A stretch of 39,654 nt of DNA from Chthoniobacterales bacterium (lineage in GTDB: Bacteria; Verrucomicrobiota; Verrucomicrobiia; Chthoniobacterales; UBA10450): NCBI GenBank assembly GCA_013694595.1, contig JACDCC010000197.1:1-39654 (forward strand), in the 5' to 3' direction. Within the stretch, counting starts at the first letter, position 1; each line of letters opens with the position of its first letter. This document shows, piece after piece, positions 3,522 to 39,639 of the stretch. The notes beneath the pieces were generated by a model. That model had not been told where the DNA came from and searched no databases. It saw nothing but the letters and a program-made list of their open reading frames with translations. Made by a program: the position numbers and the translations under genes.

Positions 3522-5426
3522 TTAACGTGGACGCTGCGGTGTAGCAGAAAATGGATCGGCGATCTGCGGCTCGCCTCCGGACCCGTTTCGCCTTAGCCAG
3601 ACGTGGAGAATAGCGATGTCTGCCGGCGTGACGCCGCTAATTCGCGACGCCTGGCCGAGGCTCACCGGGCGCACGGCCGTCAGCTTCTGCCGCGTCTCTG
3701 GCCGAAGGCTGGGTATGTGTGTGAAATCGATACCGTCAGGGATACGCTGCGCCTCGCGTCCAGAGATCTGCTTGTTCTGTTGCAGCTGCCGCCGGACGTA
3801 CCCTTCGTATTTCAGTTCTGTTTCCAACAGCTCCCACAGCTCAGGTGAAGCTTTCTCGCGCGTCCCGGCAGGTAAGGAGTCGAGCCGAAACTCGGGACGT
3901 TTAATTAAGAGTTGCACCGGCGTGCCGCCGATGTGCGTGGCAGCGGCCGTCGCGCGGAGTGCATCTAACGCACGGCGCTTCTGCTCGAACGCCGTCCATC
4001 GCTCGTCTCCCACCAACCCAGATTCCCGCCCACGCGGCGTGAGCCGCTGATCGGCGTTGTCCTGCCGGAGCGTCAAACGGTCCTCGGCACGACTCGTAAA
4101 CATCCGGTACGGCTCCTCGGTCCCTTTCGTCACGAGGTCGTCGATCATCACTCCGATGTAAGCCTCAGCGCGTGAGAGTGTGAACTCCGGCCTGTCTTGC
4201 ACCTTCAGCGCCGCGTTCGCACCGGCGATCAGGCCTTGGGCGGCCGCTTCTTCGTAACCGGAAGTGCCGTTAACCTGGCCCGCGAAGTAGAGGCCGGCGA
4301 CGCGCTCCGTTTCGAGCGTGTGAACCAGCTGCGTCGGCGGGAAGTAGTCGTACTCGACGGCGTAGCCGGGCCGCATGATTTCCGCTGCTTCCAAGCCCGG
4401 GATCGTCCGCAGGAAGTCCAGCTGCACCTCGTACGGAAGGCTGGTGGAGATGCCGTTGACGTAAAACTCGTCGGTGTGTAGCCCCTCGGGCTCAAGGAAG
4501 AGCTGATGCGCGGTCTTGTCGGCGAACTTCACGACCTTGTCCTCAATTGAGGGGCAGTATCGCGGTCCTGTTCCCTGGATGCGGCCGGAGTACAGGGGCG
4601 ATCGATGAAGGTTATGGCGGATTACCTCGTGAGTCGCTGGAGTCGTGTGCGTGATCCAGCAGGGCACTTGTTCCACGTAGAACTTCGCGCCGTTCAATGA
4701 GAAAATTTCGCTCTCCGTCTGTTGCTCCTCTGGCGGGAGGAAGCTGAATCGGGGCGACGGATCGTCCCCATGCTGGATTTGGCAGCGTCCGAAATCGATC
4801 GAACGTCTGCTGATCCGGCACGGCGTCCCGGTCTTGAAGCGCCCTACCTCGAAGCCGAGCTCGCGCAGGCTCCCGCTAAGACCTGATGCCGTTTCCGCCA
4901 TACGGCCGCCAGGTTTCGAAGTCTCGCCAACGTGCAGTAAACCACGAAGGAAAGTGCCCGATGTGATCACGACGGTTCGCGCCCCGATCGTCAGGCCGAT
5001 ATCGGTCTCGACACCAACGACACGCCCGCCTTCTGTGAGCACCTGCTGAACAGTGGCCTGCTTGACATCCAATCCCGCCGTTCGCTCTATCTCCGCTTTT
5101 GCGCGAAACTGATATGCCTTTTTATCGCATTGTGCACGAGGCGCGCGGACGCTAGGGCCTTTCGTGCGGTTGAGCATCCTAAATTGGATCCCGGTTGCGT
5201 CGGTATTCTGGCCCATGAACCCGCCAAGCGCGTCGATCTCCCGGACAATATGTCCCTTTGCCAACCCGCCAATGGCGGGATTGCACGACATCTGTCCGAT
5301 CGTGTCGAGGTTCTGCGTCAACAAGAGGGTCGAGCACCCGAGTCTCGCCGCGACCATGGCAGCTTCTATCCCCGCGTGGCCACTGCCCACCACCACCACG
5401 TCATAAGTTTTGGCCAGCGCGTACAT
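3522..5426 (-). CDS. mnmG: tRNA uridine-5-carboxymethylaminomethyl(34) synthesis enzyme MnmG (GidA)
   Basis: [88 protein letters not shown]. Confidence 0.97.
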
Positions 5427-17550: not shown

Positions 17551-17658
17551 CGTGCTGTGTTAAAGCATCCGACAACAAGAAGCCAACAACATCGAATAAT
17601 CTCCAATACATTCCGTCTCTTTGAATCCCGTGTGATTTATCGGCGTGACCCGCTGGTG

Positions 17659-17667
17659 TTATCCACA
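17659..17667 (+). promoter_or_regulatory. DnaA box TTATCCACA
   Basis: Exact match to consensus TTATNCACA in the divergent intergenic region 17551-17852. Confidence 0.65.
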
Positions 17668-17731
17668 GGAGACTAGAGGACTTCGCACCACAGCTGAAAT
17701 TCGGCTGTTGGACGAGGTTGTTCGCACGCTT

Positions 17732-17772
17732 AAGAAGAAGAGAATGTTTTCGAGGAATAAATAAATCTTAAA
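17732..17772. other. AAG-repeat plus AT-rich stretch between two DnaA boxes (candidate unwinding element)
   Basis: aagaagaagagaatgttttcgaggaataaataaatcttaaa, unusually AT-rich for this window. Confidence 0.4.
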
Positions 17773-17777
17773 GACGC

Positions 17778-17786
17778 TGTGAATAA
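17778..17786 (-). promoter_or_regulatory. DnaA box TTATTCACA (reverse strand; tgtgaataa on +)
   Basis: Exact reverse-complement match to TTATNCACA. Confidence 0.6.
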
Positions 17787-17852
17787 CTCATTCTGTCTCC
17801 GTTCGTTCGTTCGCCCGGCCTGTCGGCAGTAACAAAGCACTATCAGTCGCGC

Positions 17853-18638
17853 ATGAGCCCGCTCGCCCAACCCGAAACCAGGCTCGTGAGCAAAAGCGGC
17901 ACCAGCAACGGCATCCTGCTTGCCGATAAAGCAACAAGCGCTCACCGGCTTCCGCCGCGACCATCGGCGGCGCCCTCCGCGGCACGAGCAGCCGCCAACG
18001 ACAGCCTGTTCGACCGCTTCGCCTGGCTCTACGTCTTCTTTCGCGAGAAGGTTTTCCGCGACGATACCGACCGCATCGCGAACGCGCTCTGGCCGGAAGG
18101 CTCACCTGCTCCTGGCGCCGAGTTGCTCGAGCTCGGCTGCGGCCCCGGCTTTTACTCCTGCGGACTGGCGGCGCGTTTCCCGACGATCTCCGTCCTCGGG
18201 GTTGACTGCTCGGCACAGCAGCTGACCTGTGCGAAGCGGAAAGCTCTCTCTCTGCAACTCAAGAACTGCGTGTTCGAACGCGACAACGTGCTCGAACTCA
18301 CGCACGGCGACGAAAGCGTCGACGCGGTGATCGCCGCCCGCCTTTTCACAGTTCTGCCGAATCGGGAGCGTGCCATCGCGGAGATGTTTCGCGTGCTGCG
18401 GCCCGGTGGGCGCTGCGTCATTGCGGAACCGCGTTACGCATTTTGGGCCTCGCTCCCGCTCTTTGCGATGTGGGTGATTGCGAGCCTAACATGCGTGAAC
18501 AACGGCTATCGTGAGCCGGCCAAAGCAACCGTGTTGGCGCCGTCTGAATTCAAACGCCTCTTCGCGACTCAGCCATGGCAGCGAGTGAGCACATGGTGCG
18601 ACGGACGTTATCAATACGCCCTCTGCGAAAAGGGTTGA
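17853..18638 (+). CDS. class I SAM-dependent methyltransferase
   Basis: GAELLELGCGPGFYSCGLAARFPTISVLGVDCSAQQL...DESVDAVIAARLFTVLPNRERAIAEMFRVLRPGGRCVIAEPR. Confidence 0.9.
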   Translation: MSPLAQPETRLVSKSGTSNGILLADKATSAHRLPPRPSAAPSAARAAANDSLFDRFAWLYVFFREKVFRDDTDRIANALWPEGSPAPGAELLELGCGPGFYSCGLAARFPTISVLGVDCSAQQLTCAKRKALSLQLKNCVFERDNVLELTHGDESVDAVIAARLFTVLPNRERAIAEMFRVLRPGGRCVIAEPRYAFWASLPLFAMWVIASLTCVNNGYREPAKATVLAPSEFKRLFATQPWQRVSTWCDGRYQYALCEKG

Positions 18639-18673: not shown

Positions 18674-19462
18674 ATGAACGCCGTCCATCGCCTCCTCGAT
18701 CCAGCCGACGGCGTCCAGGTGCCACAGAATCTTTGCGCCCTCGCAGTCATGACCAAAGCGCCGCGCGCCGGCCAGGTGAAGACGCGCCTTACGCCGCCGC
18801 TCACACCTGAAGAAGCTGCGGCGCTCAACACTTGTTTCCTGCGCGATACTACCGCGGCTATCTCTGTCGCGGCCGGTGAAGGAATCGCGCGCGGAGTCGG
18901 CGTTTACACGCCCGTTGGCGCCGAGAGCGCCTATATAGACATCCTTCCGGCGCACTTCGAGCTCGTGCCGCAGCGTGGCGACGCATTCGGTGAACGGCTG
19001 ACGTGCGCTGCCGAGGATTTGCTGCGCGTCGGGTACAAATCAGTTTGTCTGATCGACTCCGACAGCCCAACGGTCCCGCAGCGCGCCTATTCTGACGCCG
19101 CCAAGCTCCTCGCTCTGCCGGGCGACCGGATCGTCTTTGGCGCGTCCGATGATGGCGGGTATTACCTGATCGGAATGAAGAACCTGCACCGTCGGCTCTT
19201 CGAAAAGGTCGACTGGAGCACGGAACGCGTTGCCGAGCAGACACTGGAGCGTGCGAAAGAGATCGGCGTAAAGGTAGAACTGTTGCCGACCTGGTATGAC
19301 GTGGATGATCGAGTGACGTTACGCCGTCTCTGCGATGAACTGCTGGGCCCGTCCGCCGCCACGCGCGAAGGATACGCTGCGCCGGAGACACAAAAGTTTC
19401 TCACGCGCATCATCGAAACCGAAGGCCGCGACCGCATCTGGCCTAACGAGTCGAACAACTAG
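18674..19462 (+). CDS. DUF2064 / TIGR04282-type glycosyltransferase-A family protein
   Basis: CALAVMTKAPRAGQVKTRLTPPLTPEEAAALNTCFLRDT...VCLIDSDSPTVPQRAYSDA...IVFGASDDGGYYLIGMK. Confidence 0.85.
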   Translation: MNAVHRLLDPADGVQVPQNLCALAVMTKAPRAGQVKTRLTPPLTPEEAAALNTCFLRDTTAAISVAAGEGIARGVGVYTPVGAESAYIDILPAHFELVPQRGDAFGERLTCAAEDLLRVGYKSVCLIDSDSPTVPQRAYSDAAKLLALPGDRIVFGASDDGGYYLIGMKNLHRRLFEKVDWSTERVAEQTLERAKEIGVKVELLPTWYDVDDRVTLRRLCDELLGPSAATREGYAAPETQKFLTRIIETEGRDRIWPNESNN

Positions 19463-20679: not shown

Positions 20680-21714
20680 GTGCCCGTCACGCGCGAGACG
20701 ATTTGGGCGATGGCGAACTCAGCTCCGGGCGCACTGCCAGATTTCGGTGACCCGATCGCGGAGCATGCGCGGCGTGATTTTCCGCTGCTCGACACCGACA
20801 TGACCGTGAGCACCGCGCTGGAGCGCATCCGCTCCGAAGGCGTAGGCGAGCGTGTGATCTACTTCTACGCAGTCGACAAAGACAAGAAGCTCGCCGGGGT
20901 GCTGCCGACGCGGCGGCTGCTCACTTCGCAGCTCGATCAGCGTGTGGAAGAGATCATGATTCCGCGCGTCATCGCGATTCCTTCCACGGCCACGGTGCTC
21001 GATGCGTGCGAATTTTTTGTCCTCTACAAATTCTTCGCGTTCCCGGTGGTCGACGCCGAGAAGCGCATCGTCGGCGTGGTGGATGTGAACCTGTTCGCCG
21101 AGGAATTGCTCGTCGACCGCGATGATGATCAGCCTGTGAAGGATGACGTCTTTGAAGTGGTCGGCTTTCACCTGTCGCAGGTGCGTGATGTCTCGCCGCT
21201 GCGCGTCTTTCGGTATCGATTCCCGTGGCTGCTTGCCACCGTCGCAGGCGGCACCGCGTGCGCCGTTTTGGCAGGCGCTTTCGAGGCGACACTCGCGAGC
21301 AGTCTGGTGATCGCGTTTTTCCTGACGCTCGTGCTCGGATTGAACGAGAGCGTGAGCATGCAATCGATGGCGCTCACGATCCAGGCGCTGCGCAGCACCC
21401 GCGTCACCGCGCGGTGGTTTACGGCTGCATTGCGCCGCGAGATTCTGAACGCGGCGCTGCTCGGCCTCGGTAGCGGAGTGGTCGTCGGAACAATTGTGCT
21501 GGTCTGGCAGCGGAATATCGCCGCCGCGGTCACAATCGGATTGAGCATCGCGATTTCGCTCGTAGCGGCTGCATGTTTCGGACTCGCGATCCCGTCGCTG
21601 CTGCACTGGCTGAAGCTCGACCCGAAAATCGCCGCCGGCCCCATCACCCTCGCGGTTACGGATCTGGCAGCTCTGGCGTTTTACCTCTCGATCGCGACGT
21701 TGATCCTCCGATGA
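20680..21714 (+). CDS. MgtE-like divalent cation transporter with CBS pair
   Basis: CBS segments (DTDMTVSTALERI..., EEIMIPRVIAIPSTATVLDACEFFVLYKFFAFPVVDAEKRIVGVVDV) followed by MgtE-like TM region (RFPWLLATVAGGT..., LNESVSMQSMALTIQAL). Confidence 0.8.
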   Translation: MPVTRETIWAMANSAPGALPDFGDPIAEHARRDFPLLDTDMTVSTALERIRSEGVGERVIYFYAVDKDKKLAGVLPTRRLLTSQLDQRVEEIMIPRVIAIPSTATVLDACEFFVLYKFFAFPVVDAEKRIVGVVDVNLFAEELLVDRDDDQPVKDDVFEVVGFHLSQVRDVSPLRVFRYRFPWLLATVAGGTACAVLAGAFEATLASSLVIAFFLTLVLGLNESVSMQSMALTIQALRSTRVTARWFTAALRREILNAALLGLGSGVVVGTIVLVWQRNIAAAVTIGLSIAISLVAAACFGLAIPSLLHWLKLDPKIAAGPITLAVTDLAALAFYLSIATLILR

Positions 21715-22412
21715 CGCCCAAACATTTCGTATCTGTCGTTATCCCCGCGATGAATGAAGAAGAGCCGATCGCCGACGTGGTTCGCGAGGTGCTCGAAACG
21801 AACATTCCACGCGAGGTCATCGTGGTCGATAACGCCAGCACCGATCGCACTGCGGAGCGTGCGCAGGCTGCGGGAGCGCGGGTGGTCACAGAGCCGATGC
21901 CCGGCTACGGCCGAGCCTGCGCGACCGGCGTCCGAGCTGCGTCGTCGGAGTCGACCGTTCTGGTCTTCCTCGATGGCGACGGCAGCGATTGCGCGAACCT
22001 GATGTCGCGCATCGTGCAGCCGATTTTCGATGGCGAGCAGGACTTCGTGATCGGATCGCGCACACGGGGCGAACGCGAGCGTGGCAGCATGAATTTCCAG
22101 CAGGTCTTCTCCGGGCGCGTGGCAGGCTTGCTCCTGCGGATACTTTACGGCGTCAGCTATACGGACATGTGCCCCTTCCGCGCGATCCGGCGGGACGCGC
22201 TGGAGAAGCTCGGCATGGAAGAGCAAACCTATGGGTGGAATCTCGAGATGCAGATGCGCGCCGCGCGGGCCGGTTTGCGCATCCTGGAAGTGCCGGTGAA
22301 TCACCGCTGCCGCACCGGCGGTGAGTCGAAGGTGTCAGGAACATTGCGCGGCACGTTCGTCGCCGGCACTCGCATCATCGCAACTTTGTTTCGCGTTGCG
22401 GCCGAGAGATAG
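21711..22412 (+). CDS. family 2 glycosyltransferase (dolichol-phosphate mannose synthase-like)
   Basis: VSVVIPAMNEEEPIADVVREVLETNIPREVIVVDNASTDRTAERA...VFLDGDGSD...FVIGSRTRGERERGSM; ATGA overlap with the preceding gene; start trimmed from the ORF track. Confidence 0.9.
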   Translation: MTPKHFVSVVIPAMNEEEPIADVVREVLETNIPREVIVVDNASTDRTAERAQAAGARVVTEPMPGYGRACATGVRAASSESTVLVFLDGDGSDCANLMSRIVQPIFDGEQDFVIGSRTRGERERGSMNFQQVFSGRVAGLLLRILYGVSYTDMCPFRAIRRDALEKLGMEEQTYGWNLEMQMRAARAGLRILEVPVNHRCRTGGESKVSGTLRGTFVAGTRIIATLFRVAAER

Positions 22413-31068: not shown

Positions 31069-34000
31069 GTGGTGACGATGCTGAGCAGGTCGCCGGTTTC
31101 AGGACTGTTGCCGGTGCGGCACAAGCTGCGCGGAGAACGGCAGCGCGAACTGCCTTTGCGGGCGGAGTTGTTTGGCGTCGAGCAACTGGCCCGTCACGCC
31201 GAGACCATCGCGGCGCGACATCAGGTCGTGACGAGCCGCGGTTCCAACCGGCTTCTCGCGCAGTTGGACCGCAATGAGGAGATCGTGCGGGCGTTTAATC
31301 GCGCCACTCTCAACGTCGATAAGACACGCCGGGTGACGCCGGCGGCGGAGTGGTTGCTCGACAATTTCTACCTGATCGAAGAGCAGATCCAACTGGCCCG
31401 GCGCCATCTGCCGCGGGGATACAGCCGGGAACTGCCGCGACTGAGCAACGGCCCCGCTGCCGGAGTGCTGCGCGTCTATGACATCGTGCTCGAATTGATC
31501 GCGCATGTCGATGCGCAGATCGATGCCAGCTCGCTGACCGCTTTCGTTGCTGCCTACCAAAAGGTGGCCGTGCTGAAACTCGGCGAGCTGTGGGCTATTC
31601 CGATCATGCTGCGGCTGGGATTGATCGAGAACTTGGCCCGCATCACCACCGGGCTCGCGACGGCGCGCGACGATCGCAATCTAGCCAATGTATGGGTCGA
31701 TCGCTTGCAGGAGACGGCGGAAAATAATCCGTCCCGGGTCGTCATCGTGGTCGCGGATCTGGCGCGGGCTGATCTGCGTTTGTCGAGCTCCTTTGTCGCT
31801 GAGTTTTGCCAGCGGCTCTCCCGCTTGAACCCGGTCCTGCACGTCGCGCGCGGCTGGCTCGAGCAACAGCTCGTCGAGCAAGGCCTCTCCATCGAGCAGC
31901 TCATTCATCAGGAGAGCCAAAGCCAGGCCTCCGATCAGGTCTCGGTCAGTCACAGCATTACCAGTCTGCGTTTGCTGAGTGCGATCAGTTGGAAGGAATT
32001 CGTCGAGACGCTGAGCCTGGTCGAACAAACTTTGCGCGGCGATCCCGGCGACGTGTACAGCGACATGGATTTCGCGACGCGTGATTGCTACCGCCACGTG
32101 GTCGAAACGCTCGCGCGGTATGGGCGTCTTTCCGAGATGGAGGTGGCGCAAAGAGCGGTGGAACTGGCGCGGGAAAGTGCGCAGCAGAAAGGACGCGAAG
32201 ATCGCAGCGCACATGTGGGCTTTTACCTGATCCACAAAGGCCGGCCGCTGCTGGAGCGGGCGGCGAATGTGCGCTGGCCCTGGCACACAGCCGTTCCGCG
32301 CAGCATTCAGCGTTCTCCGTTTACCTTTTACGCGGGCGGAATCTTTCTGCTCACAGCGCTCGCCACACTGGGTTTCGTGCGCACTGCTCAGGTGCTCGAG
32401 GTGCAGGGATGGATTTTGATTTTCTCTTCGCTCACGTTCCTCGTCGGTGCGAGCCAACTGTCGGTCGCATTACTGAATTGGCTCGCCGCACTGCTGGTGG
32501 CGCCGCGTCTTCTCCCGCGCCTCGACTACTCCTCGAAGATCCCATCGGAAAGCCGCACCATGGTGGTCATTCCCACCTTTCTCAGCAGCGCTGAGAATAT
32601 CGATGAACTGATCGAGGCGCTCGAGATTCATCATCTCGCGAATCGCGATCCGAACCTGCACTTCGCGCTGTTAACGGACTGGCGTGACGCTCCAGTCGAG
32701 AACCTGCCGGACGATCATCCCCTTTTGGAACGAGCGCGCACGGGGATCGAAGCCCTCAACCGCAAATACGGCTCCAGCCGGGACGATCTTTTCTTCCTCT
32801 TCCATCGCTCACGCCGCTGGAATCCGGGAGAAGGCCTCTGGATGGGATACGAGCGCAAGCGGGGAAAGCTGAGGGAGTTCAACTCCTTTCTCCGCGGGGG
32901 CTCCCCGGAAGGCTTTTCCAAAGTGGTGGGCGAAGCCGCCATCCTTCCTGCCATCAAATACGTCATCACGCTGGATACCGACACACAGTTGCCGCGCGAA
33001 TCCGCCGGCCAGCTCATCGGCACGATGGCGCATCCGTTGAACCAGCCCTGCTTCGATCCGACGCGCGCGCTTGTGGTGGAGGGCTACAGCATGATGCAGC
33101 CGCGCGTGGAGATGAGCCTGGCCGGCGCGGGCCGGTCGTGGTTCGTCCGCCTGCAGGCGGGCGAGGTGGGCATCGATCCCTACACGCACGCGGTCTCGGA
33201 TGTGTATCAGGATCTTTTCCACGAAGGCTCCTTCATCGGGAAAGGAATCTACGAAGTAGACGCCTTCGAGCGCGCGCTGGCCGGGCGATTTCCTGAAAAC
33301 ACAATTCTCAGCCATGATCTGCTGGAATCGGTCTATGCCCGCTGCGCGCTGGTGACCGATGTGACCTTTTACGAGGAATACCCTTCGACTTACCTCGCCG
33401 ACGTCGACCGGCGACACCGTTGGATGCGGGGCGACTGGCAGATCATCCGCTGGCTCCTGCCTTGGGTGCGCGGTGAAAAGGGAAGGTCGATCGCAAACCC
33501 GATCTCCGGCCTCTCGCGCTGGAAACTGCTCGACAACCTGCGGCGCAGTCTCGTCCCGATCGCGCTCTTGTTTTTTCTCGTGGGAAGCTGGTTGTTTCTC
33601 CCGCAGCTCAGCGGCTGGGCCATCGGCGTTGTCGTGAGCATTCTTCTCCTTCCGGCGCTGCTGTCGTCGCTGGTCGATCTCGTGCGGAAACCGGAGCAAC
33701 TCCGGTGGCTGATGCACATGCGCGGAGTGGCGGCGAAGGCCGGTCCTGCGCTCGTCGAAATGACTCTGACGCTGGTGATGTTGCCGCACGATGCCTTTCT
33801 CAGTCTGGACGCGATCAGCCGCACGCTTTTCCGCATGCTCGTAACGCGCAAGGGTCTGCTGGAATGGCGCACCTCGAGCGACGTAGCACGCAGCGCACGG
33901 CTGGATCTCGCCGGCTCGTTTCGCGCCATGTGGAGCTCGCCGGCTGTTGCCCTAACGAGTGGTCTGACACTGAGCCTGATCCAGCCAACGAATTTGCCAA

Positions 34001-37000
34001 TCGCCCTCCCTTTCCTCGGGCTCTGGCTGGCGGCGCCCTGGATCGCGTGGCGGATCAGCCGCCCGATCCAGCCGCCGGCGCCGGAGCTGGCGCCTGAGCA
34101 ACTGGTTTTTTTGCGGCGGATCGCGCGCAAAACCTGGCATTTTTTCGAGACTTTCGTCACCGCAGAGGAGAACTGGTTGCCTCCGGATAATTTCCAGGAA
34201 GAACCTTCCACCGGAGTGGCGGCGCGCACTTCGCCCACCAACATCGGCCTGGCGCTGCTCGCCAACCTGGCCGCGCGAGACTTCGGCTACTTGTCGTTAG
34301 GCGGGTTGCTCGAACGAACGGAGACCACCCTCGCCACGATGCTGCGCCTGGAACGCCATCGCGGTCATTTCTACAATTGGTATTCCACCCGCACGCTCGA
34401 GCCGCTCCTCCCGCTCTATGTCTCGAGTGTGGACAGCGGCAATCTCGCCGGTCACCTGCTCACTCTCGCCGCCGGGCTGCGGCAGTTGGCGGACGAGAAG
34501 GTGCTGGCGCCGCAGATTTTTGCCGGCCTGCGCGACACACTCGGCGTCGTCCAAAGATTAGCCGGCGAGAATGCGCTGCTCGCGCAACTCGACACCGAGC
34601 TGGCGAATGCGCCTTCTACTTTGCGCGAGAGCCTGGCTTTGCTGCAACGTGCCGCCGAAAACTCGGCAGAGATTTCCAGCGGATTGGCAAATCGCGAGGA
34701 GGACCTGAAAAGCTGGGCACAGGTTTTCCAGCGTGAATGTGAAGAGCATCTGCAGGAGGTGCTTTTTCTCGGCTCACTCGAAGCACGCGAGCAGAACCCA
34801 TCGTGGCGAGAAATCGCCGCTCTCGATCCCTCATCCACCGTGGTGCGTGAGGCGAGGCAGCACGCCCGCGAGCGCATTCAGAAATTGGAAACGCTCGCCG
34901 GCCAATGTGACGAGCTGGCCGCAATGGATTTCACCTTCCTTTACGATCAGGCGCGCAATTTGTTCTCCATCGGATTCAACGTCACCGACAACCGGCGCGA
35001 CCAGAGCTTCTACGATCTACTCGCTTCGGAGGCGCGTCTTTGCAGCTATGTCGCGATCGCGCAGGGGCAGGTGCCGCAGGAGCATTGGTTCTCGTTGGGC
35101 CGTCTCCTCGTCGCGTCGCGCGGCGAACCGATTCTGGTCTCCTGGAGCGGCTCGATGTTCGAGTATCTCATGCCGCTCCTGGTGATGCCGGATTATGAAA
35201 ACACGCTGCTCGACCGGGCGTGCAAAGCCGCCGTGCGCCAGCACATCGAACATGGCCGCTCGCGCGATGTGCCCTGGGGCGTCTCGGAGTCCGGTTATTA
35301 CCGGACCGATGTGCATCATAATTATCAGTATCGTGCGTTTGGCGTCCCCGGGCTGGGTTTGAAACGCGGCCTGGCCGAGGACCTTGTGATCGCGCCCTAC
35401 GCCAGCGTGATGGCGCTAATGGTCGCGCCGCGGGAGGCCTGCGAAAACCTCCAGCGACTCGTGCGCGAGGGACGCGAAGGCGTCTTTGGTTTTTACGAAG
35501 CGGTCGATTACACGCCTTCGCGCCTGCCGCCGGAGACAGCGAGCACCACGGTGCGCTCCTTCATGGCGCATCACCAGGGGATGAGTCTGCTCAGTCTGGT
35601 CAATCTGCTGCGCGATTTCACGATGCAACGTCGCTTCATGTCGCGCCCGCTGCTCAAAGCCGCTGACCTCCTGTTGCAGGAACGCCCGCCCAAGACCGAC
35701 GCCAATGTTCTGCCTGAGGATTTGAGCATGGAGGAAATTGAGCCGCGTTTCGAGGAAGGCGCGGATGTCATGCGCGTCTTCACCAATCCCAGCTCGCGCG
35801 CGCCGGAAGTGCATCTCCTCTCGAACGGGCGTTACCATGTCGCCATCACTCATGCCGGCGGTGGCTACAGTCGCTGGCGCGATCTGGCCGTGACCCGCTG
35901 GCGCGAGGATGCGACGCGCGATTGCTGGGGCACCTTTATTTATCTGCGCGACGTGGCGAGCGGCGAATTCTGGTCCACCGCGTATCAGCCAACACGGCGC
36001 GCGACAAAGACCTACGAAGCCATCTTCACGCAGGCGCGCGCGGAGTTTCGCCAGCGTCACAATGAGCTGGAGATTCATACCGAGCTCTGCGTTTCGCCGG
36101 AAGACGATGTGGAATTGCGCCGCATCACCCTGACCAATCGTTCCTCGACCGAGCGCGTGATTGAATTGACCAGCTACGCGGAAGTGGTGCTCGCCACCCA
36201 CCCCGCGGACGAAGCGCACCCGGCCTTCAGCAATTTGTTTGTGCAAACCGAATTTGCGCCCATTTCCTCGGCCATTCTCTGCACCCGGCGGGCGCGCTCC
36301 GAAGATGAAACGCCGCCCTGGCTTTTGCATCTGCTCGTCGGGCAGGGCGGCGCGCAGAGCGCAATCTCCTGCGAGACGGATCGCTTCCAGTTTATCGGGC
36401 GCGGGCGCACGCTCGAGAATCCGGCGGCCATGGAAAAAGATGCGCCCCTCTCGAACACCGTCGGTTCCGTGCTCGATCCCATCATTTCGCTCCGGCGCAC
36501 CGTCACGCTCGCGCCGAATGAAAGCGCCGTGCTCGACTTCGTCCTCGGCATGGCGGAAAGCCGCGAAAACGCGCTCGGGTTGGTGGAAAAATATCAGCAC
36601 GCGCGCATGGCCGATCGCGCGCTCGATCTCGCCTGGACGCATAGCCAGGTCATCCTGCGTCAGCTCGACGCTTCCGAAGGCGAAGCGCAGCTCTACGCCC
36701 GCCTGGCCGGCGCGATTATTTTCGCCGACCCCGCGCGCCGCGCCACGTCCGGCGTGCTGCTCGAGAATCGGCGCGGCCAAAGCGGCCTCTGGACATACGG
36801 CATCTCAGGCGACACGCCGCTCGTGCTGCTCCGCGTCACCGACACCGAGAACCTGGACATCGTGCGCCAGATCATTCAGGCGCATTCCTATTGGCGGACA
36901 AAGGGCCTGGCCGTCGAGCTGGTCATCTTGAATGAAGATGCCTCCGTTTACCGCCAAACGTTGCAGGATCAGATCACGAACCTGGTTGCCTCCGGCACGG

Positions 37001-39639
37001 AAGCGCAATTGCTCGACAAGCCGGGCGGAATATTCGTCAGGCGCCTCGAGCAGATTCCCAACGAAGATCGCCTCCTGCTCCAATCCGCGGCCCGCATCCT
37101 TCTCTCGGATGACAACGGCTCGCTCCTCGAACAACTGGAGCAGCGCGCTGTGCTCGAGCCGCGCGTCCCCGCGCTCACGCCGACGCGACCGGCGCGGATC
37201 GAGTCACCCGCGTCCCCGCCGGCGCGCGAGTTGATCTTTCACAATGGCTACGGCGGATTCACTCCCGACGGGCACGAGTATGTCATCACGCTCTCGCCCG
37301 GCCAGGCCACTCCCGCGCCGTGGGTCAACGTGATGGCCAACCCGGAGTTCGGGACGGTCGTGTCGGAAAGCGGCGGCGCTTACACCTGGTTCGAGAACGC
37401 GCACGAATTTCGGCTCACGCCCTGGCAAAACGATGCCGTTCAGGATACGACCGGCGAGGCGCTTTACATTCGCGACGAAGAAACCGGCCAGGTCTGGTCG
37501 CCGTGTCCGTGGCCCGCGCGGGGTGCCACGCCTTATGTCATCCGCCACGGGTTCGGCTACACCGTCTTCGAGCACTACGAGAACGGCATCGTCTCGGAGT
37601 TGTGGGCTTACGTGGCGATGGATGCGCCGGTCAAGCTGACCAATTTGAAGTTGCGCAACGTCTCGGGCGGGCCGCGCCGTTTGTCCGTCACCGCCTACTG
37701 CGAGTGGGTGTTGGGCGATCTGCGGCCCAAGACGCTCCTCAACGTGCAGACCGAAGTGGACCTGAAAACCGGGGCCTTGCTGGCGCGCAACTTTTACAAC
37801 ACCGAATTCCCCGATCGCATCGTCTTCCTTGATGTCATTGACCAGAACCGCACCCTCACCGGAAATCGAAAAGAATTCCTCGGGCGCAACGGAACTCCCG
37901 CGCAACCTGCGGCTTTGAAGCGGGCGCGGCTCTCCGGAAAAACAGGCGCGGGCTTCGATCCCTGCGGCGCCATGCAGGTCGCGTTCGAGCTGGGCGACGA
38001 GCAGGAGCGCGAGACAAGTTTCCGTCTCGGCGCGGGCCGGAATCTGGACGAGGTGCAGAATCTGGTCTCGCGTTTTCGCCGAGCCGACGCCAGCGCCGTC
38101 TCACTCGCCCTCGTGCATGAATTCTGGAATCGCACGCTCGGCGCGGTCAACGTCGATACGCCCGATCCCGCCGTGAACACAATGGCGAACGGCTGGCTCC
38201 TTTACCAAACCCTCAGCTCCCGCCTCTGGGCGCGGACCGGGTTCTATCAATCGGGCGGCGCGTATGGCTTCCGCGATCAGTTACAGGATGTGATGGCGCT
38301 GGTGCACGCCGAGCCGAGCCTCACGCGCGAGCATTTGCTCCGGGCCGCCGCGCGCCAGTTCCGGGAAGGCGACGTGCAACATTGGTGGCATCCGCCGGCC
38401 GGCCGCGGTGTGCGCACGCATTTCTCCGACGACTACCTGTGGCTGCCATACGTCACCTGCCGCTATGTTTCCTGCGCCGCCGATACCGGCGTCCTCGATG
38501 AACAGATTCCTTTCCTCGATGCGCGGCCGGTGATGCCGGAGGAGGAATCTTATTACGACCTGCCCAACCGCTCGCAGGAATCCGCCAGCCTCTACGAGCA
38601 TTGCGTGCGCGCCATCAGGCATGGGTTGAAATTCGGCCAGCACGGCCTGCCCCTGATTGGTTCCGGCGATTGGAACGACGGCATGAACCTGATCGGAAAA
38701 GAGGGGCGCGGCGAAAGCGTCTGGCTGGGATTTTTCCTTTACGATGTGCTCACGCAGTTTGCGGAGCTCGCGCGCGCCCGCGCGGATACGGACTTCGCCG
38801 AGCATTGCCTGGCCGAGGCGAAGCAGTTGCAAAAGAAGATCGAGGCAAACGCGTGGGACGGAGAGTGGTACCTCCGCGCCTGGTTCGATAACGGCGAGCC
38901 GCTCGGCTCCCGGAACAATGAGGAATGCCAGATCGATTCTCTGCCGCAAAGCTGGTCGATCATCAGCCGAGCGGGCGAGCCAGAACGTTCCCGGCAGGCC
39001 ATGCAGGCGGTCAACGAACGTCTGGTTCGCCGCGACGCGAACCTCATCCAGCTCTTCGATCCGCCCTTCGACAAATCGCCGCTCAATCCCGGTTACATCA
39101 AGGGCTACATCCCCGGCGTGCGCGAGAATGGCGGGCAATACACTCATGCCGCCATCTGGACCGCGATGGCTTTCGCGCTCCTCGGAGAAAACGAGCGCGC
39201 CTGGGAACTGTTCACGCTCATTAACCCCATCCAGCACGGCGGCACGCCCGAGCAGATCGCCACCTACAAAGTGGAGCCCTACGTTGTCGCGGCCGACGTC
39301 TATGCCGTCGCGCCGCACACCGGCCGGGGCGGCTGGACCTGGTACACCGGCTCAGCCGGCTGGATGTACCGCTTTCTCACCGAGACGCTGCTCGGCGTTC
39401 ATCTGGAAGGCGAGCGGCTGCGCGTCACGCCACGTTTTCCCGCCCACTGGACGAGCTACAAGATTCACTACCGCTACCGGCAAACCGTTTACCACATCAC
39501 CATCACCCGCTCGTCCGACGACTCGTTAGGCCAGAGTGCACTCACTCTCGACGGCCAGCCTCTGACCGACGAAACGATCCCGCTGCACGATGATCGCATC
39601 GAACATTTCGTCGAGATCCGCATCCAAGCCCGGCCCTGA
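31069..39639 (+). CDS. ndvB: cyclic beta-1,2-glucan synthase / NdvB-type giant protein (GT84 + glycoamylase-like + GH94), 2856 aa
   Basis: MVVIPTFLSSAENIDELIEALEIHHLANRDPNLHFALLTDWRDA; TLDTDTQLPRESAGQLIGTMAHPLNQP; GSFIGKGIYEVDAFERAL; NVTDNRRDQSFYDLLASEARLCSYVAIAQGQVPQEHW; FRDQLQDVMALVHAEPSLTREHLLRAAARQFREGDVQHWWHPPAGRGVRT; IGSGDWNDGMNLIGKEGRGESVWLGFFL; PYVVAADVYAVAPHTGRGGWTWYTGSAGWMYR. Confidence 0.93.
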   Translation: MVTMLSRSPVSGLLPVRHKLRGERQRELPLRAELFGVEQLARHAETIAARHQVVTSRGSNRLLAQLDRNEEIVRAFNRATLNVDKTRRVTPAAEWLLDNFYLIEEQIQLARRHLPRGYSRELPRLSNGPAAGVLRVYDIVLELIAHVDAQIDASSLTAFVAAYQKVAVLKLGELWAIPIMLRLGLIENLARITTGLATARDDRNLANVWVDRLQETAENNPSRVVIVVADLARADLRLSSSFVAEFCQRLSRLNPVLHVARGWLEQQLVEQGLSIEQLIHQESQSQASDQVSVSHSITSLRLLSAISWKEFVETLSLVEQTLRGDPGDVYSDMDFATRDCYRHVVETLARYGRLSEMEVAQRAVELARESAQQKGREDRSAHVGFYLIHKGRPLLERAANVRWPWHTAVPRSIQRSPFTFYAGGIFLLTALATLGFVRTAQVLEVQGWILIFSSLTFLVGASQLSVALLNWLAALLVAPRLLPRLDYSSKIPSESRTMVVIPTFLSSAENIDELIEALEIHHLANRDPNLHFALLTDWRDAPVENLPDDHPLLERARTGIEALNRKYGSSRDDLFFLFHRSRRWNPGEGLWMGYERKRGKLREFNSFLRGGSPEGFSKVVGEAAILPAIKYVITLDTDTQLPRESAGQLIGTMAHPLNQPCFDPTRALVVEGYSMMQPRVEMSLAGAGRSWFVRLQAGEVGIDPYTHAVSDVYQDLFHEGSFIGKGIYEVDAFERALAGRFPENTILSHDLLESVYARCALVTDVTFYEEYPSTYLADVDRRHRWMRGDWQIIRWLLPWVRGEKGRSIANPISGLSRWKLLDNLRRSLVPIALLFFLVGSWLFLPQLSGWAIGVVVSILLLPALLSSLVDLVRKPEQLRWLMHMRGVAAKAGPALVEMTLTLVMLPHDAFLSLDAISRTLFRMLVTRKGLLEWRTSSDVARSARLDLAGSFRAMWSSPAVALTSGLTLSLIQPTNLPIALPFLGLWLAAPWIAWRISRPIQPPAPELAPEQLVFLRRIARKTWHFFETFVTAEENWLPPDNFQEEPSTGVAARTSPTNIGLALLANLAARDFGYLSLGGLLERTETTLATMLRLERHRGHFYNWYSTRTLEPLLPLYVSSVDSGNLAGHLLTLAAGLRQLADEKVLAPQIFAGLRDTLGVVQRLAGENALLAQLDTELANAPSTLRESLALLQRAAENSAEISSGLANREEDLKSWAQVFQRECEEHLQEVLFLGSLEAREQNPSWREIAALDPSSTVVREARQHARERIQKLETLAGQCDELAAMDFTFLYDQARNLFSIGFNVTDNRRDQSFYDLLASEARLCSYVAIAQGQVPQEHWFSLGRLLVASRGEPILVSWSGSMFEYLMPLLVMPDYENTLLDRACKAAVRQHIEHGRSRDVPWGVSESGYYRTDVHHNYQYRAFGVPGLGLKRGLAEDLVIAPYASVMALMVAPREACENLQRLVREGREGVFGFYEAVDYTPSRLPPETASTTVRSFMAHHQGMSLLSLVNLLRDFTMQRRFMSRPLLKAADLLLQERPPKTDANVLPEDLSMEEIEPRFEEGADVMRVFTNPSSRAPEVHLLSNGRYHVAITHAGGGYSRWRDLAVTRWREDATRDCWGTFIYLRDVASGEFWSTAYQPTRRATKTYEAIFTQARAEFRQRHNELEIHTELCVSPEDDVELRRITLTNRSSTERVIELTSYAEVVLATHPADEAHPAFSNLFVQTEFAPISSAILCTRRARSEDETPPWLLHLLVGQGGAQSAISCETDRFQFIGRGRTLENPAAMEKDAPLSNTVGSVLDPIISLRRTVTLAPNESAVLDFVLGMAESRENALGLVEKYQHARMADRALDLAWTHSQVILRQLDASEGEAQLYARLAGAIIFADPARRATSGVLLENRRGQSGLWTYGISGDTPLVLLRVTDTENLDIVRQIIQAHSYWRTKGLAVELVILNEDASVYRQTLQDQITNLVASGTEAQLLDKPGGIFVRRLEQIPNEDRLLLQSAARILLSDDNGSLLEQLEQRAVLEPRVPALTPTRPARIESPASPPARELIFHNGYGGFTPDGHEYVITLSPGQATPAPWVNVMANPEFGTVVSESGGAYTWFENAHEFRLTPWQNDAVQDTTGEALYIRDEETGQVWSPCPWPARGATPYVIRHGFGYTVFEHYENGIVSELWAYVAMDAPVKLTNLKLRNVSGGPRRLSVTAYCEWVLGDLRPKTLLNVQTEVDLKTGALLARNFYNTEFPDRIVFLDVIDQNRTLTGNRKEFLGRNGTPAQPAALKRARLSGKTGAGFDPCGAMQVAFELGDEQERETSFRLGAGRNLDEVQNLVSRFRRADASAVSLALVHEFWNRTLGAVNVDTPDPAVNTMANGWLLYQTLSSRLWARTGFYQSGGAYGFRDQLQDVMALVHAEPSLTREHLLRAAARQFREGDVQHWWHPPAGRGVRTHFSDDYLWLPYVTCRYVSCAADTGVLDEQIPFLDARPVMPEEESYYDLPNRSQESASLYEHCVRAIRHGLKFGQHGLPLIGSGDWNDGMNLIGKEGRGESVWLGFFLYDVLTQFAELARARADTDFAEHCLAEAKQLQKKIEANAWDGEWYLRAWFDNGEPLGSRNNEECQIDSLPQSWSIISRAGEPERSRQAMQAVNERLVRRDANLIQLFDPPFDKSPLNPGYIKGYIPGVRENGGQYTHAAIWTAMAFALLGENERAWELFTLINPIQHGGTPEQIATYKVEPYVVAADVYAVAPHTGRGGWTWYTGSAGWMYRFLTETLLGVHLEGERLRVTPRFPAHWTSYKIHYRYRQTVYHITITRSSDDSLGQSALTLDGQPLTDETIPLHDDRIEHFVEIRIQARP

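Follow-up and report, generated by a model that had tools for sequence, protein, structure and literature searches.

The window, that is, the whole stretch of 39,654 nucleotides analysed here, lies on contig C247 of a draft genome of 3.38 Mb in 413 contigs (completeness 91.9%) from an uncultured soil member of the Chthoniobacterales (Verrucomicrobiota). Contigs of public genomes that match it carry the labels Chthoniobacterales, Spartobacteria or Verrucomicrobia metagenome assembly. Two divergent open reading frames (ORFs), for a putative cyclase (PF04199; 16714-17550, minus strand) and a SAM-dependent methyltransferase (17853-18638, plus strand), enclose an intergenic gap at 17551-17852, whose GC content is 47%, against ~62% for the window, as had been estimated in the initial annotation. 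The mnmG gene, which had been placed about 12 kb away, was located at 3522-5426 (minus strand), ~12 kb left of the gap, and dnaA, reported as absent from the window, was found on another contig, C85. Elsewhere in the window, the right end is a single ORF of 2856 codons (31069-39639, plus strand), and ~140 bp are shared by a glycosyltransferase ORF (21573-22412) and the end of an ORF for an MgtE-type transporter (20680-21714), both on the plus strand; the glycosyltransferase probably begins at a later start codon.

The gap had been described as holding two perfect inverted DnaA boxes. Indeed, both 9-mers are exact: box 1, TTATCCACA, at 17659-17667 on the plus strand, and the end box, TTATTCACA on the minus strand, at 17778-17786. 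A threefold AAG repeat (AAGAAGAAG, 17732-17740) and GGAATAAATAAATCTTAAAG (17754-17773) also lie where they had been reported. The expectation of fewer than one exact 9-mer in the window was borne out by shuffling (mean 0.26), and two matches were reached in only 1 of 100 window shuffles, so that the pair is notable, as had been argued. In the whole draft genome we counted 19 TTATNCACA sites, and no contig except C247 carries two of them. This cluster of DnaA boxes is unusual for the genome, as is looked for in an oriC. By simple arithmetic, 19 sites placed at random would give a pair as close as that of the window ~1% of the time. A scan of the draft genome for a denser TTATNCACA cluster, which would have spoken against an origin at this place, revealed no exact-box cluster denser than that of the window.

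We then examined the conservation of the gap. Used as a DNA query, it matched 17 of 58 related genomes, mostly through its left half. Homologous elements were extracted via the neighbouring genes and aligned (n = 28); their length is near-constant, at about 218-240 bp. A sequence-only profile built on these 28 homologues, R1, matches the window at 17558-17788 on the plus strand (~230 bp, model positions 1-229, E 6.1e-38), and this stretch is hereafter called the element. Within the family, R1 found a match in 74 of 83 genomes, nearly always in one copy, and in 28 of the 30 high-quality genomes; 28 of the 74 positive genomes form the training set, the remainder being independent. The nine family genomes in which R1 found no match are mostly incomplete. 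The element thus behaves as is expected of an oriC, with one copy per chromosome and conservation in relatives. Across the order, 167 of 197 genomes gave a match at E<=0.05, weaker than in the family and mostly single. Outside the family, about 104 of about 130 order genomes were counted with a match, where ~6 would be expected by chance; many of these matches are partial and several are near the threshold. In a control sample of the phylum, R1 matched 17 of 195 genomes at E<=0.01, four of which belong to the order, and the matches outside the order were mostly weak.

The alignment reveals a fixed layout: a phased TTRTT array, box 1 and a weak box are followed, after 4-5 nt, by a run of A-rich trinucleotides, then by AT-rich DNA and finally by the inverted end box. 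The left array (17572-17606, minus strand) is the best conserved block in the family and consists of TTRTT starts ~10-11 bp apart (TTGTTGG, TTATTCG and TATTGGAG on the minus strand), which we interpret as putative phased weak DnaA boxes. The trio-adjacent weak box, TTGTTCGCA (17718-17726, plus strand), has 3 mismatches to TTATCCACA; this site reads TTATTCGCA in many relatives and TTATTCACA or TTGTTCACA in other families. It is followed after 4-5 nt by a DnaA-trio-like run of five.A. units (TAA GAA GAA GAG AAT; 17731-17745, plus strand), which can also be read as the threefold AAG at 17732-17740, and in which alignment columns A175, G177 and A181 are invariant among the 28 sequences. The stretch at 17743-17776 is a candidate duplex-unwinding element: it is 74% A+T in a window of ~62% GC, in keeping with the AT-rich DNA expected of an oriC. 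In the consensus of the 28 sequences, box 1 reads TTATC[AC]ACA, the weak box is TTRTTCGCA-like and the inverted box is TGTGAANAAC.

The initial annotation had asked whether the two boxes are conserved in close relatives, and the outcome favours an oriC. The position of the gap and its layout are kept, and relatives hold box-like sites at both box positions, usually TTATCAACA for box 1 and TTYTTCACA for the end box, with TTTTTCACA, TTCTTCACA or TTGTTCACA among the end-box sequences of relatives. One qualification is that both boxes being exact is peculiar to the window genome. Such strong conservation outside reading frames could also point to an RNA leader or a small RNA encoded in the gap. 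We consider this highly improbable: the conserved blocks are DnaA-box-like and AT-rich, an Rfam search of the element gave no match at E<=1, and consensus RNA structure prediction on the 28 sequences returned no pairs.

The order of box, short spacer and trinucleotides recalls the basal unwinding system (BUS), in which a DnaA box is separated by no more than 16 bp from three or more.A. trinucleotides, with a published limit of 2 mismatches in the box (PMC8287927). The window falls outside this strict rule (<=2 mismatches to TTATCCACA, <=16 bp from at least three.A. units), TTGTTCGCA having 3 mismatches. It does have at least three consecutive.A. trinucleotides near a box-like site, with five units starting 4 nt after TTGTTCGCA. 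The strict pattern was found in 8 of the 28 family elements, compared with 2.4% of shuffles, and in 5 of 7 other loci, mostly from other families, by way of TTATTCACA or TTGTTCACA. In other families, TTATTCACA or TTGTTCACA takes the trio-adjacent position, and AAGAAGAAG comes after it. Several other families of the order (L250, L251, L252, L212, L214) also share a GTGGAACGC-like motif, placed after box 1 and before the trio-adjacent box.

GC skew was measured on contigs of relatives, the window's own draft genome being split into 413 contigs. On a 737 kb contig of genome G016, the cumulative GC-skew minimum falls at 343,399, 3.1 kb away from the element (340,170-340,376); dnaA lies on the same contig at a distance of 249 kb and does not coincide with a minimum. 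In G023, the lowest point of the skew over 100 kb is at 324,056, inside the element (323,983-324,211); farther left on this contig, the skew departs from a single-switch pattern. Three noisier contigs (G035, G038 and G155) have local minima 18, 21 and 40 kb from the element, none of which is significant alone. Pooled across the skew contigs, the Fisher p is about 0.0002-0.005, varying with window size. On the relatives' long contigs, third-codon-position skew was not decisive and gene strand bias added little. Overall, the skew in this group is weak; it supports the origin reading, short of proof. A census of TTRTNMACA sites on the long contigs placed the element top or tied in G038 and G155 and did not single it out in G016, G023 and G035, and box counting alone would therefore miss it.

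The initial annotation had offered a DnaA-regulated promoter as the alternative. DnaA bound to the two boxes would then couple the divergent cyclase and methyltransferase genes to the replication cycle, and the middle of the gap is indeed flanked by the two boxes, between a gene pair that is kept in much of the family. Such a promoter should stay tied to the genes that it controls, whereas the flanks of the element differ between lineages. In G008, G012 and G018, the element has the cyclase on one side and, on the other, a DUF2064-like gene, recognised by a start sequence resembling window positions 18674-19462, with no adjoining methyltransferase. In G016, it lies between MTHFR and the DUF2064-like gene, both the cyclase and the methyltransferase being gone. 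In other families, its neighbours are RNase III and PfkB (G150), UvrC and RNase III (G057), RNase III (G196), deoxyhypusine synthase (G155) or a DUF4910 gene (G038). Since a promoter would be expected to travel with its gene, these changing flanks make the promoter of one gene an unlikely explanation, and the trio-like run, the rigid length and the skew minimum would be unexpected for it as well. The persistence of the element beside unrelated genes weakens this alternative, which we hold very unlikely, even if the element may have an additional promoter role besides that of an origin.

Given that one single-copy stretch is found across the order with varying gene neighbours and, in the related contigs with the clearest signal, sits at the turning point of the skew, the element is very probably where replication starts. 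We thus propose, with a probability of about 0.85, that positions 17558-17788 are the chromosomal oriC of this Chthoniobacterales bacterium, judging from its sequence and conservation, its copy number, the exchange of its neighbouring genes and the skew in two relatives. On the best reading, the element is the oriC of the Chthoniobacterales more widely and lies apart from dnaA. The origin suggested by the initial annotation gains support from the lack of a denser box cluster in the draft genome, the conserved gap and the skew agreement in two relatives' contigs, with three others noisy.

The region upstream of dnaA was also considered as an origin and is disfavoured. On contig C85 (G000:C85, L001), dnaA has one box upstream; this region retains mainly one box, is off the skew minimum in G016, and is less conserved than the element, with a mean pairwise identity among ten genomes of 41% over the 230 bp upstream of dnaA versus 53% for the element. 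The element could instead be a DnaA-binding regulatory site, a titration or reactivation locus of the datA/DARS type that controls initiation elsewhere, and such loci would likewise be single-copy, conserved intergenic clusters of DnaA-box-like sites. This seems very unlikely, as the AT-rich trio architecture and the skew agreement favour an origin, and nothing that we saw made a better candidate for it: the upstream region of dnaA is weaker on boxes, conservation and G016 skew.

If the element is the origin, DnaA, encoded on another contig, would bind box 1, the end box and the left array of phased weak boxes. Starting at the weak box (17718), the protein would extend onto one strand of the A-rich trinucleotide run, and the AT-rich DNA at 17743-17776 would then melt and allow helicase loading.

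The Escherichia coli oriC also lies apart from dnaA, combines strong and phased weak boxes, has its AT-rich region on one side and has mnmG (gidA) nearby. The element shares all of these features, except that mnmG is 12 kb off and not adjacent. With the Bacillus subtilis-type BUS oriC, it shares the DnaA box, the short spacer, at least three.A. trinucleotides, the AT-rich DNA and a DnaA with all domains (PMC6669920, PMC8287927). It differs in the degenerate trio-adjacent box of the window's family, in the separate phased TTRTT array ~130 bp upstream, in the inverted box that closes the AT-rich side and in not being beside dnaA. In the same phylum, the origin of Methylacidiphilum infernorum, likewise inferred from sequence and GC skew on a Verrucomicrobiota chromosome, was mapped 250 nt upstream of dnaA (PMC2474590), whereas the element is, in the window genome, on a contig other than that of dnaA and lies 249 kb from dnaA in G016 and ~46 kb in G008. 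By analogy, this would count against the element as oriC (PMC2474590). It is conceivable, if on balance improbable, that the whole order has an oriC apart from dnaA and that, in the window's family, a degenerate trio-adjacent box is combined with a far-upstream phased TTRTT array, DnaA loading onto the trios depending on the array and not on a strong adjacent box.

We found no description of a Chthoniobacterales origin in the literature searched, which left out most subscription papers and DoriC. For the Chthoniobacterales, an order with abundant soil bacteria of which most are uncultured, a recognisable origin would give a fixed chromosome start and allow growth estimates from peak-to-trough coverage in soil metagenomes; it would also add a lineage for testing how DnaA opens DNA.

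The DnaA of the window genome is ordinary, with the three usual Pfam domains (N-terminal, ATPase and DNA-binding). In each of the 16 Chthoniobacterales genomes examined, the DNA-binding motif of DnaA is GRDHGTV or GKDHGTV, against GRDHTTV in the solved DnaA that is closest (8btg); the position that differs between GRDHGTV and GRDHTTV adjoins the DNA-contacting histidine. The idea that domain IV of DnaA varies with the box sequence was abandoned, as all 16 genomes have the same DHGTV motif. Moreover, family members (L113-L126) carry, upstream of dnaA, a conserved TTTTCCCTCGTAT block and a TGTTAACA palindrome directly before the start codon, which suggests a possible autoregulation of dnaA.
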